Source of the DNA: Bifidobacterium breve
GTDB taxonomy: Bacteria > Actinomycetota > Actinomycetes > Nanopelagicales > Nanopelagicaceae
Assembly: GCA_945873335.1 (NCBI GenBank)
Contig: CAMCCH010000005.1
Location: 1-34,242, forward strand
DNA: 34,242 bases
Reading direction: 5' to 3'
This document shows positions 37 to 15,636 of this stretch, piece by piece (the stretch's first letter is position 1; each line of letters starts with the position of its first letter). The translations under genes and the position numbers were made by a program. Below the pieces are notes generated by a model. It was not told the DNA's origin. It ran no database searches and saw only the letters and a list, made by a program, of their open reading frames with translations.

Positions 37-792
37 CTATCTAATTGTGTATCCACCATCGACAACTAAATCAGCGCCATTAATCATGTCTGCACCATCT
101 GAAGATAAGAAAATTACGGCAGCAGCAACTTCTTCTGGTTCAGCGAAACGGCCAACAGGAATCTGTGCTTTGTGTGCATCGCCTTTTTCGCCGGCCCATG
201 CTTTCTTACCTAATTCCGTAAGTACAACAGTAGGAGAGACAGAATTTACATTGATTCCGCGGCCGCCCCATTCAGATGCTAAAACTTTTGTTACACCGAG
301 AACACCAAATTTAGAGGCGCAATATGCAACATGATCTGTAAGCGCAACGCTGGCAGCCTGGGATGCCAAGTTAATGATTTTTCCTTTTCCAACTTTTAAC
401 ATTTCTCGTCCAACACTTTGAGAAACAAAGAATGTACCGCTGAGATTTACGGCGATTGTTGTGTTCCAGTCTGATGCTTTAACGGATTCAGCCGGATCTA
501 GCACGGCCATTCCTGCACTGTTTACCAAAATATCGATACGTCCATGTACTGAGATGACTTCCGCAACTGCTTTATCTATTGAGGCGATATCAGTTACATT
601 GCACACGTGTGCAGTTGAACCATTCTTGATATCAGATGCTACTTTTTGAGCAGCATCAATATTCATATCAACAACAGCAACGGTTACTCCCTTTTTAGCA
701 AAGTTTTCGCAAATTGATTTGCCAATTCCAGAGGCACCGCCAGTAACAAGTGCAATCTTGTTAGCGAGAGAAAAGTTCATATCAACGGTCAT
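37..792 (-). CDS. SDR-family NAD(P)-dependent polyol dehydrogenase (D-threitol/erythritol dehydrogenase-like)
   Basis: This is a classical short-chain dehydrogenase/reductase of 251 aa, the usual family length. The Rossmann motif TGGASGIG is at residues 17-24. Asp42 sits at the end of the second beta strand, which favours NAD over NADP. NSAG is at 91-94 and the catalytic Ser144, Tyr157 and Lys161 (YCASK) are all present. It probably oxidises a polyol hydroxyl to a ketose in the cytoplasm. It is divergent from an erythrulose-kinase-like operon, so a role as threitol or erythritol dehydrogenase is the best contextual guess. SDR sequence alone does not fix the substrate, and xylitol-, sorbitol- or glucose-type dehydrogenases look similar. 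An alternative start is Met5 at 780. Neither start has a strong Shine-Dalgarno. Confidence 0.85.
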   Translation of the reverse strand: MTVDMNFSLANKIALVTGGASGIGKSICENFAKKGVTVAVVDMNIDAAQKVASDIKNGSTAHVCNVTDIASIDKAVAEVISVHGRIDILVNSAGMAVLDPAESVKASDWNTTIAVNLSGTFFVSQSVGREMLKVGKGKIINLASQAASVALTDHVAYCASKFGVLGVTKVLASEWGGRGINVNSVSPTVVLTELGKKAWAGEKGDAHKAQIPVGRFAEPEEVAAAVIFLSSDGADMINGADLVVDGGYTIR

Positions 793-900
793 AGCGAGCC
801 CCAGCTTTCATATAAGCAGTATTTTACTCTGGCAACTTTACTGGCAATCTGGAATACTTCAACATAGGTTTTAGCCGTCGAAGAATGGATTGGTTACACA
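793..900. promoter_or_regulatory. Divergent promoter region of the polyol cluster, with CTGGCAA direct repeats
   Basis: This 108-nt region separates the divergent SDR gene and the kinase operon, so it must carry both promoters. It contains two copies of CTGGCAA, at 829-835 and 841-847, spaced 12 nt start to start. They could be tandem binding sites for a regulator, which is inference. I see no convincing long palindrome and no regulator gene in the visible part of the cluster. Confidence 0.35.
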
Positions 901-2619
901 TTGCCATATGTACTAAATGATCCTGAAGATTTTGTTGATGAAGCTACCGAAGGATTTGTAACCGCACACTCTCACCTAGTAAGGCGAGTACAAGGTGGCG
1001 TTGTTAGAAATCAAGAGAAAACACAAGGACAAGTTGCTGTTGTCATTGGTGGCGGCTCAGGACATTACCCTGCATTTGCTGGAATTGTGGGCCCCGGATT
1101 AGCACACGGCGCAGTAGTAGGAAATGTTTTTTCTTCACCATCAACACAGCGCGTACATACTGTTTGTAAAGCTGTAGAAGCAGGCGGCGGAGTTCTGTTG
1201 AGTTATGGAAATTACGCTGGCGATGTTATGAATTTCAACTTGGCACAATCACAACTCAATGCCGAAGGAATTCCGTGTAAAACAGTTCTTGTTACAGATG
1301 ACATTATGAGTGCGAGCAAAGAAGAATTTCATAAGCGCCGAGGAATTGCTGGCGATCTATTTGTATTCAAAGTTGCAGCGGCCGCTGCTGAAGCAGGATA
1401 TTCACTCGATGAGGTTTACAGAGTTGCAGTCGAAGCGAATGAGCGCACCCGCACAATTGGCGTTGCATTCTCTGGTTGTACTTTGCCGGGCAAAACCGAA
1501 CCGTTATTTACTGTTCTAAAAGGACGCATGGCACTCGGCTTAGGTATTCATGGAGAACCTGGACTTAGCGAAAGCGACATTCCAACATCTAAAGAACTAG
1601 CCCTAGAACTTGTAACTCACTTGCTGGAAGAGACGCCTGATTCATGTCGAAATGATTCAAAGATTCGACTGTGTGTCTTGGTCAACGGCTTGGGTGGAGT
1701 TAAGTATGAAGAGCTCTATGTGCTCTATAACAATATTTCTGCAATCCTAAAAGAGAAAAATATCGAAATTGTTGAGCCAGAAGTTGGGGAACTTGTTACC
1801 AGCTTTGAAATGGCAGGCGCATCACTTACTTTTACATGGCTCAATGAGGAACAAGAAGGATTTTGGAAGAAGCCAACATATACACCGGGGTATAAAAAAG
1901 GCACCGTCTCTCTAGGTTCTGGCTCATCTCAATCTAATGCCCTACAGGATGAGAAGAAAGAAATCTCTAAAGGAAGTTCAGAATCACAGGAATGTGCAAA
2001 AAATGTTCTAAAAATATTGCAACTCATGGAAACCAACACCGTGCAGCGTGCAGATGAGTATGGACTCTTAGATTCATATGCTGGCGATGGAGATCATGGA
2101 ATCGGTATGGCGCGCGGTGCACATGCTGCAGCTAGTGCAGCGAAGCAATATGTAGATGCCGGTGCAGGCGCTGGATCTACCCTTGAAGCAGCAGCAGATT
2201 CTTGGTCTGATAAAGCAGGAGGAACTTCAGGAATTATCTGGGGAATTATCTTGCGAGAAATTGGTAAAGAGTTTGGTGATTCAGTAAAGCCATCGGCGCA
2301 AGTAGTAGCTAGTGCAGTTGCAAGAGCCTCCGCCGAAGTTACAAAATTTGGAAAAGCGCAGATTGGCGATAAGACACTCGTAGATGTGCTCATTCCATTT
2401 TCACAGAAATTAGTAAGTGAAAACGGAAAGTCACTTCCAGAGGCTTGGCGCAGTGCAAGTGGCGTAGCTTTAAGCTCGGCAGCAGATACAGCCAACTTAC
2501 TTCCAAAAATTGGTCGCGCACGCCCACATGCGGAGAAGAGCTTGGGGCATCAAGATCCAGGGGCAACATCACTAGCAATGATTATTTCCACAATCGCTAA
2601 TTTCTTGGAAGGAAAATGA
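901..2619 (+). CDS. Fused DhaK-DhaL dihydroxyacetone/erythrulose kinase (DAK family, LerK/DerK-like)
   Basis: This is a single-chain ATP-dependent ketose kinase of 572 aa. The DhaK half (about 1-330) has GGGSGHYP at 50-57 and the substrate-binding His217 in GLGIHGEPG, which forms a hemiaminal with the ketose in this family. After a Ser/Lys-rich linker (about 335-365), the DhaL half carries the ATP/Mg motif GDGDHG at about 395-400 and GGTSG at 440-444. The enzyme phosphorylates dihydroxyacetone or a longer ketose. Because RpiB- and TIM-type isomerases and polyol dehydrogenases follow, erythrulose is the likelier substrate. The start is TTG: the N-terminus aligns with the family there, and the nearby ATG at 885 is out of frame. 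The downstream gene begins 2 nt after the stop, so they form an operon. Confidence 0.9.
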
Positions 2620-2620
2620 T

Positions 2621-3085
2621 ATGACCAAGAAATTTCGCGTAGTAATCGGTAGCGACGATGCAGGTTTCCAATATAAAGAGATCTTGAAAAAACAGTTGCA
2701 AAGTGATGCCAACGTTGACTCAGTTGTAGATGTTGGAGTCGATGCATCAAGTAAGACTCCTTACCCAGATGTTGCAATTGCTGCAGCGCAGATGATTGCT
2801 GATGGAAAAGCTGACAGAGCGCTGTTGATTTGCGGTACTGGTCTTGGAGTTGCAATCTCTGCCAATAAAGTAAAAGGAATACGGGCAGCTACGGCCCACG
2901 ATAGTTATTCAGTAGAGCGACTTGTGCTTAGTAATAATGCGCAAGTTCTGACTTTTGGTCAACGTGTTATTGGTATTGAATTAGCCTCACGATTAGCAAA
3001 AGAGTGGCTTACATATCATTTTGATGAAAGTTCGGCATCAGCACAAAAAGTTGCACTTATTACTGAATTTGAAAATAAAGATTAA
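2621..3085 (+). CDS. RpiB/LacAB-family sugar-phosphate isomerase (ribose-5-phosphate isomerase B-like; probable erythrulose-4-P isomerase)
   Basis: This 154-aa protein has the RpiB/LacA/LacB fold: an N-terminal GSDDAGF loop, the active-site motif [21 protein letters not shown] with the catalytic Cys, and a C-terminal helix. Canonical RpiB has SDHAG near the N-terminus; here the His is Asp (SDDAG), which points to a different substrate from ribose 5-phosphate. In known tetritol pathways an RpiB homologue converts D-erythrulose 4-phosphate to D-erythrose 4-phosphate, and the neighbours fit that. The ATG follows the kinase stop by 2 nt and has the Shine-Dalgarno AAGGA upstream, so translation is probably coupled. 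A housekeeping RpiB role cannot be excluded from this window. Confidence 0.88.
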
Positions 3086-3088
3086 TAG

Positions 3089-3853
3089 ATGGCAAGTCGC
3101 GCAGGCAAACTACTAGTAGGCGTAAATCTCAAGATGTATATGGATAGAGAACAGACCCTCTCATGGTTAGATGCAGCAGTTACTGGCTTAGGTAGTATCA
3201 ATAGTGACGACGTTGAACTCTTTCTTCTTCCATCAGCGCCACTTATTTCCGACTGCATAGAAAGAACATCAGCTTCTCTTCTTGCAATCGGAGCCCAAAA
3301 TATAAGCGCGCATGATTCTGGTGCCTTTACTGGTGAGATTAGCCCCCAATTGCTTGCTCAAATGGGTTGTGAATATGCACTCATTGGTCACCACGAAAGA
3401 CGAACACTCTTTGGTGAAAGCAACGATGTAATTTCTCAAAAGATTGCGGCGGGCAATAGAAATAATCTCATTCCGATTGTGTGTATCGGCGAGATCAGCA
3501 AAGAGGATAAGTCAGCTGCGGTAGAGGTAAAAACTCAGATTAGAAGCGCTGTGAAGGAGCAAAAGAATCTAAAGAAGTTAGTTATTGCATATGAGCCAAC
3601 GTGGGCGATTGGGGTAGATCAGCCAGCCTCAGCCGAACATATAAATAAAATGTGCTCGCTCATCCGCACAGAATTAGAGGATATGAATATTCAAAATTTT
3701 CGTATACTTTATGGGGGCAGCGCGGGTGAGGGTCTATTTGAATTAATCTCTCAAACATGTGATGGATTATTTCTTGGTCGCAGATCTCATAACCCTCAAA
3801 CTTATATTTCAATAGTTCAAGAATGTATTTCAATCAAAGCGGCAAACCTATGA
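3089..3853 (+). CDS. Triosephosphate isomerase-family protein (probable L-erythrulose-1-P isomerase)
   Basis: This is a TIM-barrel isomerase of 254 aa, normal TpiA length. Catalytic residues are present: Asn13/Lys15 (NLKMY), His101 in IGHHERR, and Glu169 in the signature AYEPTWAIG. The phosphate-binding loop YGGSAGE lies near residue 208. Canonical TpiA has NWKMN and GHSERR, so Trp to Leu and Ser to His are deviations at active-site positions. The gene starts 3 nt after the RpiB-type gene in an operon with a ketose kinase. The parsimonious role is isomerising L-erythrulose 1-phosphate to D-erythrulose 4-phosphate, as the TIM homologues of tetritol operons do. Glycolytic TpiA is the alternative; a second tpiA elsewhere in the genome would support the specialised role. 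Confidence 0.88.
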   Translation: MASRAGKLLVGVNLKMYMDREQTLSWLDAAVTGLGSINSDDVELFLLPSAPLISDCIERTSASLLAIGAQNISAHDSGAFTGEISPQLLAQMGCEYALIGHHERRTLFGESNDVISQKIAAGNRNNLIPIVCIGEISKEDKSAAVEVKTQIRSAVKEQKNLKKLVIAYEPTWAIGVDQPASAEHINKMCSLIRTELEDMNIQNFRILYGGSAGEGLFELISQTCDGLFLGRRSHNPQTYISIVQECISIKAANL

Positions 3854-3872
3854 AAATGAAAGAGGACCACAA

Positions 3873-4946
3873 ATGAGCCCAACAATGAAGGCAGTCGTAT
3901 GTCATGGTCCAATGGATTACAAGTTAGAGGATGTAGAAATACCTACGCCATCTAAGGGCGAAGCACTTGTACGAGTAGAAGCTGTTGGTATTTGCGCTAG
4001 TGATTTGAAGTGTTATCACGGTGCATCAAAGTTTTGGGGAGATGCAAATAGACCTGCTTGGGCTGAGACTGAAGTAATTCCAGGTCATGAATTCGTAGGC
4101 GAGATTGCGCAAATTGATGAAGAAGCAAGCAAGCGCTGGGGAGTAGTAGTGGGTGACCGAGTTGTGGCAGAACAGATTGTTCCTTGCGAAGAGTGTCGCT
4201 ATTGCAAGCGCGGTGAATATTGGATGTGTGCACCCCACGGAATGTTTGGTTTCAAGAGAAAAACTCCCGGTGCTATGGCTTCGTATATGGTTTTTTCAAA
4301 GCATTCTCGTGTTCACAAAATTTCGAAGAGTGTAAAACCAGCGCATGCTGCATATGCAGAACCGTTGTCATGCGCACTTCATGCTGTGGAGCGAGCCAAT
4401 ATCAAAAATACCGATGTCGTTGTTGTTGCAGGATGCGGTCCTATTGGTCTTGGAATGATTGCTGGCGCTGCTGTGAAAAAACCTGCAATTCTTATTGCAT
4501 TGGACTTAGATGATCGTAAGTTGGCAGTTGCAAAAGAATGTGGCGCAACGCTTACTATCAATATCGGGCGCGAAAATGCGATTGAAATAGTCAAAGAATT
4601 GACTGAAGGATATGGCGCAGATATTTACTTGGAGGGCACTGGTCATCCAAGTGCAGTTGCGCAAGGTCTACAAATTTTGCGCAAACTTGGAACCTTTGTT
4701 TTGTATAGCGTCTTCAAAGAAGATGTAACTGTTGATTGGAGCATTATCAGCGATGATAAAGAGCTCGATGTTCTAGGTGCTCACCTTGGTCCACATTGCT
4801 GGCCAGCTGCAATTGCCATGATTGAATCAGGAAAATTGCCGTTGGATAAAATCTGTACCCACCAACTTCCACTCGCAGATTTCCAAAAGGGTCTTGATAT
4901 GGTTTCAGCAGGAAACGAATCCATCAAGGTTTCGCTCATACCGTAA
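3873..4946 (+). CDS. Zinc-dependent medium-chain alcohol dehydrogenase (L-threitol/erythritol dehydrogenase-like)
   Basis: This 357-aa MDR-family dehydrogenase has catalytic zinc ligands Cys41 (GICASDLKC) and His72 in PGHEFVG. The structural zinc cluster is Cys105, Cys108, Cys111 and Cys119, and the Rossmann motif VAGCGPIGLG is near residue 187. It belongs to the polyol/threonine dehydrogenase branch and would oxidise a sugar alcohol to a ketose with NAD(P). It is the last gene of the kinase-isomerase operon. With the divergent SDR it gives two polyol dehydrogenases, which would suit two stereoisomeric tetritols. Shine-Dalgarno GAGGA lies before the chosen ATG; Met5 is an alternative. It ends 5 nt from the convergent glutamate dehydrogenase. 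Confidence 0.88.
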   Translation: MSPTMKAVVCHGPMDYKLEDVEIPTPSKGEALVRVEAVGICASDLKCYHGASKFWGDANRPAWAETEVIPGHEFVGEIAQIDEEASKRWGVVVGDRVVAEQIVPCEECRYCKRGEYWMCAPHGMFGFKRKTPGAMASYMVFSKHSRVHKISKSVKPAHAAYAEPLSCALHAVERANIKNTDVVVVAGCGPIGLGMIAGAAVKKPAILIALDLDDRKLAVAKECGATLTINIGRENAIEIVKELTEGYGADIYLEGTGHPSAVAQGLQILRKLGTFVLYSVFKEDVTVDWSIISDDKELDVLGAHLGPHCWPAAIAMIESGKLPLDKICTHQLPLADFQKGLDMVSAGNESIKVSLIP

Positions 4947-4951
4947 TCTTT

Positions 4952-6184
4952 TTATGGATAAAGCCCGCGTAATCTATGGGCTTCTGCAACGCGCGCAACA
5001 CCGATCATATGTGCTGCTTCGCGCCATGAAACCTTCTTAGTGCGAGCCATCTCTTCAACTTCGCGGAAAGAGCGCATCATGATCTCGTTGAGATTTGATT
5101 TCACTTCATCAGCAGTCCAGAAATAATTTTGCTTATCTTGAACCCATTCGAAGTACGAAACGATTACTCCACCTGAGTTTGCCAAGATATCTGGAACAAC
5201 AAGAATGTGATTCGCATTGAGAATTGCATCTCCGCCAGGAGTAGTTGGGGCATTTGCGCCTTCAACAATAACTTTTGCTCGAATTCCTGAGGCATTCTTC
5301 TCAGTGATTGCATCAGCGAGTGCAGCAGGAATAAGAACGTCGACATCTAAATGGATGAGTTCCTCTTGTGTGAGTTTGTCAGTTCCAGGCAAATTTAGAT
5401 TGTTATTAGCTAAGAAATGGTTCCACAACTCATTAACGTTCTTGAAACCTGTAACGCCGCCATTGACATCACTAACAGCAACAATTTTGAGGCCTAAATT
5501 TTCAAGTGCGATAGCAGCCCAATAACCAACTTTTCCAAAGCCTTGAATTGCAACAGTTGCACCCTTGGGATCAATACCCTTTACGAGTAGCGCTTCTATT
5601 GCAGATATTGCAACGCCATCACCAGTTGCAGAAGTTCTACCGAGTGAGCCACCGAGAACAATTGGTTTTCCTGTAACAACACCTGGAACTGCAAAACCAG
5701 CGTTGACAGAATATGTATCCATCATCCACGCCATATTTCTCTCATCTGTTCCAACATCGGGGGCGGGGATATCGCGCTCTGGTCCGATGATTGGTAAAAT
5801 TTCAGATGTGTAACGACGAGTTAGGCGTTCATTTTCAGCGAGCGAAAGAGTGTGCGCATCAACTGCGATTCCGCCTTTAGCCCCGCCATAGGGAAGATTT
5901 GTAAGTGCGCATTTCCAAGTCATCAACATTGCAAGCGCAACGGTTTCATCCATATCAATTGTTGGGTGAAAGCGAACACCGCCCTTTGATGGGCCTCGCG
6001 TTGTTGAATACTGGACTCGAAAGCCTTTATACATCTCCACATTGCCGTTATCTCGGCGAAGCGGAACGGCAACTTCCAAAATACGACGCGGCGTTGAAAG
6101 TGTCTGCCAATCGTTTTCTGTTAGCTCTAATAGTTCTACAGCGCGACGTAATTGTGCACGCGCGGTCTCAAGTGCTGACTCCAT
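4952..6184 (-). CDS. gdhA: Glutamate dehydrogenase (Glu/Leu/Phe/Val dehydrogenase family)
   Basis: The enzyme interconverts glutamate with 2-oxoglutarate and ammonium. The N-terminal dimerisation/catalytic domain has KGFRVQYSTTRGPSKGGVRFHP and the catalytic Lys motif PYGGAKGGI. The C-terminal dinucleotide domain has the motif GFGKVG. Length (about 410 aa) suits the small hexameric NAD-dependent type. The open frame extends to 6238, overlapping the upstream aminotransferase. The ATG at 6184 is preferred because AAAGAG lies 6 nt before it; 6190 is also possible. It follows a class III aminotransferase by about 30 nt and is probably co-transcribed, so it would recycle glutamate made by transamination and release ammonium. 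Confidence 0.92.
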   Translation of the reverse strand: MESALETARAQLRRAVELLELTENDWQTLSTPRRILEVAVPLRRDNGNVEMYKGFRVQYSTTRGPSKGGVRFHPTIDMDETVALAMLMTWKCALTNLPYGGAKGGIAVDAHTLSLAENERLTRRYTSEILPIIGPERDIPAPDVGTDERNMAWMMDTYSVNAGFAVPGVVTGKPIVLGGSLGRTSATGDGVAISAIEALLVKGIDPKGATVAIQGFGKVGYWAAIALENLGLKIVAVSDVNGGVTGFKNVNELWNHFLANNNLNLPGTDKLTQEELIHLDVDVLIPAALADAITEKNASGIRAKVIVEGANAPTTPGGDAILNANHILVVPDILANSGGVIVSYFEWVQDKQNYFWTADEVKSNLNEIMMRSFREVEEMARTKKVSWREAAHMIGVARVAEAHRLRGLYP

Positions 6185-6215
6185 TGTCATCTCTTTTTCG
6201 AAAACGTTATTTGGT

Positions 6216-7619
6216 TTAGCTACGTAGCGCTTCCGCAAGACTGCGGAAATCTTCTACCAAAATATCAATCTCTTCCTGGCCATGTGCCAAGCTGATCAAC
6301 CATTGTTCATCGAGTCCCGGAGGCGTAATTACTCCACGATTGAGCGACCAGAGCCATGAGAGCTCTGCGATTTTGAAATCAGTTGCTTTGTAATCGCGGT
6401 AGTTGCGCACGGGCAGCGTTGACCATGTGATGCAACCTTTTACGCCAAAACCAACAGTGTGCGCTGGTAATTGGTATTGCTCAATAATTTCGGTAATACG
6501 TGCAAGTGCCTGCATGTTGAGAGCCTCTGCTTTCGCAAGTGCTTCTTCAGTACAGATTTTATCAACTGCGCGTACACCAGCCATTGCTAGTGGATTACCG
6601 TTGAAAGTACCAAAGTGTGCAAGACGGCCATCGGCAACTGCATCCATGTACTTCTTCTTGCCACCAAATGCTGCAAGTGGAACTCCACCGCCGATTGATT
6701 TAGCAAGTGTGATCAGATCTGGTTTTACACCAAGACGTTGTGCTGCGCCTTGTGGTCCAGCAGTAAGTCCTGTTTTAACTTCATCAAAAATAAGAATGAT
6801 GTCGTAGTGATCACAGAGTGCGCGAACACCTTCAAGGTATCCAGCATCTGGGAGAACAATCGCAATATTTTCTAGAACTGGTTCGAGAATAAAGCAGGCA
6901 ATATTCTTTGCATGCTCTTCAAATGTCTTTTCAAGTGCTACAAGATTGTTATAAGGAACAACGTAGACATCACCAGGAACTGTTCCAGCGTATGCAACTG
7001 CATTTGGTGATTGTGCATCGCCAGCTTCATCAAGTGCTGGTTTTGCAGAGACCATAAGTGGATCAAATGAACCGTGGTATCCGCCTTCAATCTTTACAAC
7101 GCCATTCTTTCCAGAATATGCGCGAGCAAGTCGAGTCGCATACATTGTTGCTTCAGTACCTGAGTTCGCAAATCGAACTTGGTCAATAGAAAAGCGCTTA
7201 CAGATACGTTCACCTGCATCGCGAGAAATTGGTGATGGTGTAACGAAGAGCATTCCTTCTTTGAGAGATGCCTCAATTTCGCCTACAACAACTGGGTTGA
7301 GGTGGCCAGCGAGCATTGCTCCAAAGCCCATTGATAGGTCGAGTAAGCGACGTCCATCAACATCGATCATCCATGCACCTTGTGCTGAAACGATTGAGAT
7401 TGGATATGGATCCCAGTGTTGGAAGCTAGAAGGAACACCCATAGGCATTGTTCGCAGCGCGAGGGCGCTCTCTTTTTCAGAGGCTGAAGTATTTTCTTTA
7501 AAGCGCGCCCATTCTTGATCTAACAGGGCCTGGACTTTTGTTACTGAGAGCGGCTCGGATGTTGCGGGTACTGATCTAAACGTTTGCGCATGGTTAGCGT
7601 GGGTTTTCATTTTTTGCAT
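6216..7619 (-). CDS. Class III PLP-dependent aminotransferase (glutamate-1-semialdehyde aminomutase-like subgroup)
   Basis: This fold-type I aminotransferase has about 467 aa. Motifs visible are NSGTEA (cofactor phosphate), GGYHG, the PLP-binding Asp in IFDEVKTG and the Schiff-base Lys in TLAKSIGGG (residue 307 from this start). It resembles glutamate-1-semialdehyde aminomutase-like proteins but has an unusual N-terminal extension of about 60 residues, and heme-pathway neighbours are absent. A catabolic role on an omega-amino acid or amine is more likely. The substrate is unknown. The frame opens at a TTG (7631), but the ATG at 7619 is better placed after GGAA. Glutamate dehydrogenase follows closely, fitting amino-acid breakdown. 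Confidence 0.85.
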   Translation of the reverse strand: MQKMKTHANHAQTFRSVPATSEPLSVTKVQALLDQEWARFKENTSASEKESALALRTMPMGVPSSFQHWDPYPISIVSAQGAWMIDVDGRRLLDLSMGFGAMLAGHLNPVVVGEIEASLKEGMLFVTPSPISRDAGERICKRFSIDQVRFANSGTEATMYATRLARAYSGKNGVVKIEGGYHGSFDPLMVSAKPALDEAGDAQSPNAVAYAGTVPGDVYVVPYNNLVALEKTFEEHAKNIACFILEPVLENIAIVLPDAGYLEGVRALCDHYDIILIFDEVKTGLTAGPQGAAQRLGVKPDLITLAKSIGGGVPLAAFGGKKKYMDAVADGRLAHFGTFNGNPLAMAGVRAVDKICTEEALAKAEALNMQALARITEIIEQYQLPAHTVGFGVKGCITWSTLPVRNYRDYKATDFKIAELSWLWSLNRGVITPPGLDEQWLISLAHGQEEIDILVEDFRSLAEALRS

Positions 7620-14814: not shown

Positions 14815-15636
14815 GTGCAAAAAGGACTTCAGGCAAAGAGCAAGATAGTCAATATCTTTCTCGTTGTTTCAATTATCTATTTTGCAATTCCAATTATGTT
14901 TCTCTTTGTTAGCTCAACAAAACCGCCGCAGGATTTTGGAAATACATTTTCATTATGGTTTGGAAATTCATTTAGCTTCTTCCAAAACCTCCAATGGTTA
15001 GTAGATTCAAATGGCGGTATTTATGTTGTGTGGCTGAAAAACACTATTTTTTATTCATTCACTGGTGCTATCGGCGCACTTTTGTGTTCGGCAATGGCAG
15101 GCTTTGCGATTGCTGTTTATAATTTTCACGGTGTACGACAGTTACAGGCCTTTATTCTATTTCTTGTAATGGTTCCAGCCAATACCCTCGTGCTCCCGCT
15201 CTTTATTTATTTTGCAAATTTGAATCTAATCAATACACCGTGGTCGGTTATTTTACCTTCACTCGTAAATCCATTGGGAACTTTTATTATTGCTTATTAC
15301 GCAAAAGAAAATTTACCTAAGGAACTCATCCAAGCGGCAAGACTTGATCGTGCAAGTGAAATCCGTATTTTTCTTCAACTATCAATTCCTATTTTGCGCC
15401 CCGCGCTTGCAACAGTCTTTCTACTTAATTTAGTAACTAACTGGAATAATTTTTATCTACCTTTGCTTATGTTCAATGAGACGAAGATGTTCCCATTATC
15501 AGTAGGCCTTGGAACTTCATATGGTGGGCCAGGATTGATTATGGGCGCTTTTGTTGCCATGGCCCCTATCTTGGTTGCATTTCTCTTCCTGCAACGCTTC
15601 TGGCTCAAAAATATTACTGCAGGTTCAGGCGTATAA
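14815..15636 (+). CDS. Carbohydrate ABC transporter permease (MalG-type), orphan
   Basis: This 273-aa inner-membrane permease has six predicted transmembrane segments. The ATPase-coupling EAA loop is visible in ELIQAARLDRASEIRIFLQLSIPILRPAL (about 180-208). The N-terminal segment IFLVVSIIYFAIPIMFLFVSSTKPPQDF is typical of MalG/UgpE-like proteins importing sugars with a binding protein. The start is GTG without a Shine-Dalgarno. No MalF-type partner, binding protein or sugar ATPase lies nearby; the flanks are a glycosidase-like gene and guaB1. It either works with a partner encoded elsewhere or is the last remnant of a lost operon. It is intact in frame with no sign of decay. Confidence 0.88.
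   Translation: MQKGLQAKSKIVNIFLVVSIIYFAIPIMFLFVSSTKPPQDFGNTFSLWFGNSFSFFQNLQWLVDSNGGIYVVWLKNTIFYSFTGAIGALLCSAMAGFAIAVYNFHGVRQLQAFILFLVMVPANTLVLPLFIYFANLNLINTPWSVILPSLVNPLGTFIIAYYAKENLPKELIQAARLDRASEIRIFLQLSIPILRPALATVFLLNLVTNWNNFYLPLLMFNETKMFPLSVGLGTSYGGPGLIMGAFVAMAPILVAFLFLQRFWLKNITAGSGV

Follow-up and report, generated by a model that had tools for sequence, protein, structure and literature searches.

A mosaic five-gene cassette for probable tetritol catabolism in a small-genome actinobacterium

The DNA analyzed here, which we call the window, is a stretch of 34,242 nucleotides from an assembly deposited as Bifidobacterium breve and placed by GTDB in the Nanopelagicaceae (GCA_945873335.1, contig CAMCCH010000005.1). 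It comprises the whole of contig C5 and thus ends at position 1; the genome amounts to 1.30 Mb on 101 contigs and is 84% complete. Positions 37–4946 hold five intact open reading frames (ORFs), four on the plus strand and one on the minus strand, which probably form a cassette that oxidizes tetritols to erythrulose and feeds the pentose phosphate pathway. The minus-strand gene (37–792) encodes a short-chain dehydrogenase (SDR) of the GolD/DthD family. A divergent intergenic region of 108 bp (793–900), which is partly conserved in three relatives and contains one putative promoter-like match pointing to the SDR, separates it from the plus-strand operon. This consists of a fused Dak1-Dak2 kinase with a TTG start (901–2619; Dak1 domain 949–1887, Dak2 domain 2080–2598), an RpiB-type isomerase (2621–3085), an isomerase of the triosephosphate isomerase (TIM) type (3089–3853) and a medium-chain zinc dehydrogenase (ZnDH, 3873–4946). 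An initial annotation of the sequence had described all five genes as packed with gaps of 2–19 nt. This is true in essence of the four plus-strand genes, whose gaps are 1, 3 and 19 nt, but not of the SDR, which is divergent and 108 bp away. The family labels given there to the five proteins were upheld by profile and domain searches.

The two isomerases are not the only tpiA and rpiB of the genome but are paralogous to separate housekeeping copies, located on contig C94 (TIM, 34% identical to the window TIM) and contig C9 (RpiB). A complete genome of the same genus, G013, which has neither the cassette nor a fused dihydroxyacetone kinase (DAK), contains a single TIM and a single RpiB. The window RpiB passes model TIGR02133 (196 bits, cut-off 168), and in a tree the RpiBs of such clusters, including that of the Klebsiella ery locus, are split from housekeeping RpiBs by long branches with full support (100/100). 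Its best matches in PDB are 3qd5 and 3sdw, both named "putative ribose-5-phosphate isomerase" (203 bits), which we take to be of fungal origin.

The TIM-type protein stays below all TPI cut-offs (best score 166.7, cut-off 293; 110.8 against 130.6 for tim), and its catalytic lysine, histidine and glutamate are present. In our tree it is one of 64 DAK-linked TIMs that form a clade (100/99) outside the 20 housekeeping TIMs. The clade includes the TIM of an ery-type locus on a Klebsiella plasmid, which comprises an FGGY kinase, a glycerol-3-phosphate dehydrogenase-like gene, a TIM-barrel gene and rpiB. The clearest difference lies in loop 8, which reads GLFLGRRSH in the window protein and resembles that of LerI (we take DthD, EltD, LerK, DerK, LerI and DerI to be the names of the M. 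smegmatis enzymes). The motif F-x-G-R is found in this loop in all 64 members of the DAK-linked clade and in all four of the group of PDB 11ef, an L-erythrulose-1-phosphate isomerase (68/68 together), as well as in the TIMs of three further DAK-RpiB-TIM loci. In contrast, it occurs in none of the 20 housekeeping TIMs, all of which have L-x-G-G. The last loop of TIM holds the substrate phosphate, and the change to F-x-G-R would therefore fit a changed substrate.

The kinase passes PRK14479 (715.6 bits, cut-off 492) and fails the glycerone kinase model TIGR02361 (364 bits, cut-off 575). It does not cluster with plain dihydroxyacetone kinases, but is placed among fused kinases linked to RpiB and TIM, apart from two-subunit DhaK (SH-aLRT 99), and it is the sole Dak1 gene found in the genome. 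These results characterize it as a DAK-type enzyme other than a plain glycerone kinase, with erythrulose as its predicted substrate. Of 79 named loci found using the kinase, 66 had RpiB within 7 kb, 56 of these with RpiB immediately downstream, and 57 had TIM within the same distance. The DAK-RpiB(-TIM) block is recurrent across Actinomycetota and some Proteobacteria.

Within the genus, the same five genes occur in the same order in three other species (G004, G006, G035), with identities of about 62–99%. Ratios of nonsynonymous to synonymous substitution (dN/dS, omega) across three sister species were 0.01–0.06 for four of the genes (SDR 0.03–0.05; ZnDH 0.014–0.021, the strongest constraint of the five) and 0.13–0.18 for the TIM-type gene; all five are under strong purifying selection. 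A full-length fused DAK is present in 4 of 36 other genomes of the genus, so that the cassette is patchy, and a catabolic function with patchy horizontal distribution is part of the explanation we propose. Viewed singly, each of the proteins shows a common fold and carries a generic annotation, as one would also see if TIM and RpiB were housekeeping or redundant copies that came to lie by chance beside two unrelated dehydrogenases. This is already disfavored by the trees and by the single copies in G013; given also the separate housekeeping copies, the order conserved in four species, the strong constraint and the fact that the block recurs in many families, we regard chance placement as extremely improbable.

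Two observations concern the genes of the cassette and its surroundings in these relatives. The TIM-type gene changes several-fold faster than its operon neighbors and is only 61–62% identical to its counterpart in G035, where ZnDH is 97% identical. A Glu/Leu-dehydrogenase-like gene (4952–6238) sits between the cassette and an aminotransferase gene, as it does in G006 and G035, and is absent from the matching place in G004 (L032:4252–4286).

As for the dehydrogenases, the SDR scores 365.6 bits with NF005309, the GolD/DthD model of NCBIfam (cut-off 286), and shares 60–63% identity with rhizobial proteins, two of which are annotated as D-threitol dehydrogenase; at the two such loci we inspected, a sugar ATP-binding cassette (ABC) transporter and DhaK/DhaL adjoin the SDR. 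Among 297 genomes sampled from the class, we found ZnDH in 12, its own included, with identities of 53–76% to the other sequences. DAK and RpiB adjoin it in 9 of these 12 and in the genus member G008 (82% identity), giving ten actinobacterial genomes with ZnDH orthologues beside DAK and RpiB (62–82% identity). Most of the nine loci carry a CUT1 or a CUT2+DUF2291 transporter. In G246 and G224 the TIM neighboring ZnDH belongs to the 11ef group; G199 and G138 have ZnDH-DAK-RpiB and one TIM only, which would fit operation of the D branch alone in these genomes.

From protein families, gene context and published work on Mycobacterium we infer the substrates, their stereochemistry, the direction of the steps and uptake. 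The SDR would oxidize D-threitol to D-erythrulose, and ZnDH erythritol and/or L-threitol to D- and/or L-erythrulose. The single fused kinase would phosphorylate both ketoses, yielding D-erythrulose-4-phosphate and L-erythrulose-1-phosphate, the latter of which the TIM-type enzyme may convert to the former. The RpiB-type enzyme would then produce D-erythrose-4-phosphate. The claim of the initial annotation that the locus encodes a complete route from erythrulose to erythrose-4-phosphate agrees with our results: kinase, TIM and RpiB fall into clades distinct from housekeeping enzymes, the SDR is a GolD/DthD protein and ZnDH is linked to DAK and RpiB. This erythrulose-phosphate core is well supported, the choice of tetritol by each dehydrogenase less so.

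One of the closest precedents is Mycobacterium (Mycolicibacterium) smegmatis, which also oxidizes first and reaches erythrose-4-phosphate by means of a dehydrogenase, a DAK-type kinase and TIM-type and RpiB-type isomerases (PMC12780249, PMC10733421); EltD, LerK, LerI and DerI together convert L-threitol and erythritol to erythrose-4-phosphate in E. coli (PMC10733421). Unlike M. smegmatis, the window has one kinase gene for both branches, unites both dehydrogenases and the core in one locus, and lacks a recognizable tetritol ABC transporter in the cassette; a regulator was not seen there either. The initial annotation had likened the route to those of both Mycobacterium and Brucella, and it is the oxidize-first order of the former that holds. 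The ery systems of Brucella and rhizobia likewise reach erythrose-4-phosphate through TIM-type and RpiB-type isomerases, and their TIM shares the F-x-G-R of loop 8, but there the polyol is phosphorylated first (PMC5992420). EryA, EryB and EryC were not found among the ORFs adjoining the cluster, a genome-wide search not having been made. The same source, in its passages on the Yarrowia cluster, describes the same four roles side by side (dehydrogenase EYD1, erythrulose kinase EYK1, RpiB-type EYI1 and a TIM-type gene); this system is eukaryotic, and those passages mention no ZnDH-type enzyme as an additional dehydrogenase.

The gol operon of Listeria monocytogenes (L246:5324–9001) raises an alternative, namely that the cassette is a glycerol/dihydroxyacetone system in which the SDR converts glycerol to dihydroxyacetone, the kinase forms dihydroxyacetone phosphate and TIM yields glyceraldehyde-3-phosphate. 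It has a matching enzyme set in one operon (DhaK, DhaL, TIM, RpiB and an SDR 50% identical to ours, in addition to tal and tkt), it was published as a glycerol dehydrogenase/dihydroxyacetone kinase system, to judge from the title cited in PMC11575702, and the family name GolD/DthD spans both functions. The gol operon differs in its kinase, published as a two-subunit enzyme dependent on phosphoenolpyruvate, and in having no ZnDH. Against the alternative, the kinase of the window is a fused Dak1-Dak2 protein below the glycerone kinase cut-off and apart from two-subunit DhaK, and the window genome already possesses a housekeeping TIM. Finally, the gol TIM itself has a LerI-type loop 8 (GLFVGRFGH), like the cassette TIM, and groups with the DAK-linked TIMs (98/95, on a long branch), which suggests that the gol operon may act on C4 substrates too. 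We therefore consider a glycerol system unlikely.

A second alternative retains the erythrulose core of kinase, TIM and RpiB but not free tetritols as its source; the input would be, for example, free tetruloses or L-erythrulose derived from sugar acids of the apionate kind, and the dehydrogenases would serve other polyols. Feeder genes do vary among the kinase loci: in 28 the block is linked to PGDH_C, AP_endonuc_2 and MFS transporter proteins and in 24 to a 3HCDH protein, while others have CUT2 ABC transporters, part of them with DUF2291. The set of PGDH_C, AP_endonuc_2 and MFS proteins appears to resemble the D-apionate route to L-erythrulose; NCBIfam named neither the PGDH_C nor the AP_endonuc_2 partner, and a literature search on apionate and erythrulose gave nothing useful. 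Against such a source, no PGDH_C, AP_endonuc_2 or 3HCDH partner was seen adjoining the cluster in the window, both linked dehydrogenases are of polyol type, and in unrelated genomes, too, orthologues of ZnDH accompany this kinase/isomerase set. We give this alternative, too, only a small chance of being correct.

Several observations nonetheless weigh against tetritol catabolism as proposed here. The RpiB scores below the cut-off of the rhizobial DerI model NF051858 (152 bits, cut-off 240). The window TIM and 11ef fall into different clades, which is also a difference to the Brucella and rhizobial systems. The TIM evolves more quickly than the neighboring cassette genes, and the L-branch may therefore be weakly used. 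Lastly, the binding proteins of related clusters have no counterpart here: neither the CUT2 binding protein adjoining the G008 cluster, which matches a protein of the G246 cluster at 69%, nor the CUT1 binding protein of G055 had a match in the own genome (G000), G004, G006 or G035, four carriers whose genomes are 84–95% complete.

The initial annotation had also suggested that a transporter and a regulator may lie left of position 1. The relatives do not bear this out: left of the SDR, where long flanks are readable in G006 and G004, G006 has UDP-GlcNAc 2-epimerase and other genes and G004 a GH3 enzyme, both unrelated, and only 1.4 kb are readable in G035. The permeases matched in the own genome, judged by eye from their neighbor genes and not by profile, seem to belong to amino-acid, nucleoside, rhamnose-, fucose- and xylose-type systems, and none is like a tetritol transporter. 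An aquaglyceroporin as importer gives no consistent answer, being present in G004 and G035 and not found in G000 and G006. No importer is recognizable in the cassette. Elsewhere in the window, a solitary sugar ABC permease gene (14815–15636) lies beside a glycoside-hydrolase-like gene, with no partner transporter genes adjoining.

The cassette is a mosaic. For its kinase and RpiB the sister sequences are in locus L053 (metagenome-assembled genome A14_bin-3190), which holds SDR-DAK-RpiB only (L053:8121–11179), the minimal set one would expect where D-erythrulose alone is used; TIM and ZnDH are absent. The sisters of the window TIM and ZnDH are in G008, whose DAK-RpiB-TIM-ZnDH cluster has a different kinase and RpiB. 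The differing sister groups indicate that a module with the SDR and a module of TIM and ZnDH came together in the window cassette, and inheritance as a single operon was rejected because the gene trees of TIM, RpiB, kinase and ZnDH conflict. This construction fits the published logic, in which the D-erythrulose route requires a kinase and an RpiB-type enzyme and the L-erythrulose route adds a TIM-type enzyme (PMC10733421). It also agrees with the earlier suggestion of two dehydrogenases for two stereoisomers, though the isomer taken by each we infer only.

In G014 the flanking genes are present and the cassette is absent; both G004 and G008 have a cassette close to the same ferredoxin-reductase-like gene. 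Across species, this site seems to accommodate interchangeable cassettes for carbon use. Near this same gene, G013 has a DhaK/DhaL pair, a CUT2 ABC transporter and an FGGY-like kinase (L039:8736–15154). A mobilizable IncR plasmid of Klebsiella quasipneumoniae carries tkt, tal, an RpiB-type gene, a ZnDH homologue (51%), an MFS gene, DhaK, DhaL and a sugar-binding regulator (L248:4147–13347), possibly another tetritol or ketose cassette.

The chemistry proposed here is already known; of most interest are the isomerase signature, the apparent assembly of the cassette from two older modules and the fact that the importer is not recognized. A further-reaching reading, which we put forward tentatively and consider rather doubtful, is that a D-threitol module (SDR-DAK-RpiB) has been combined with an erythritol/L-threitol module (TIM-ZnDH), so that one streamlined cell can use all three tetritols by way of a single kinase and import them with a kind of transporter so far unconnected with such substrates, and that the change from glycine to arginine in loop 8 marks erythrulose-phosphate isomerases generally, re-assigning Listeria gol to C4 substrates. 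The signature allows erythrulose-phosphate isomerases to be distinguished, simply by sequence, from the many genes now labeled triosephosphate isomerase, and makes the published assignment of the gol operon re-testable. A literature search for links between Nanopelagicales and erythritol or polyols gave nothing useful; if the proposed route is correct, tetritols would join the carbon sources of this small-genome, apparently freshwater genus of actinobacteria.

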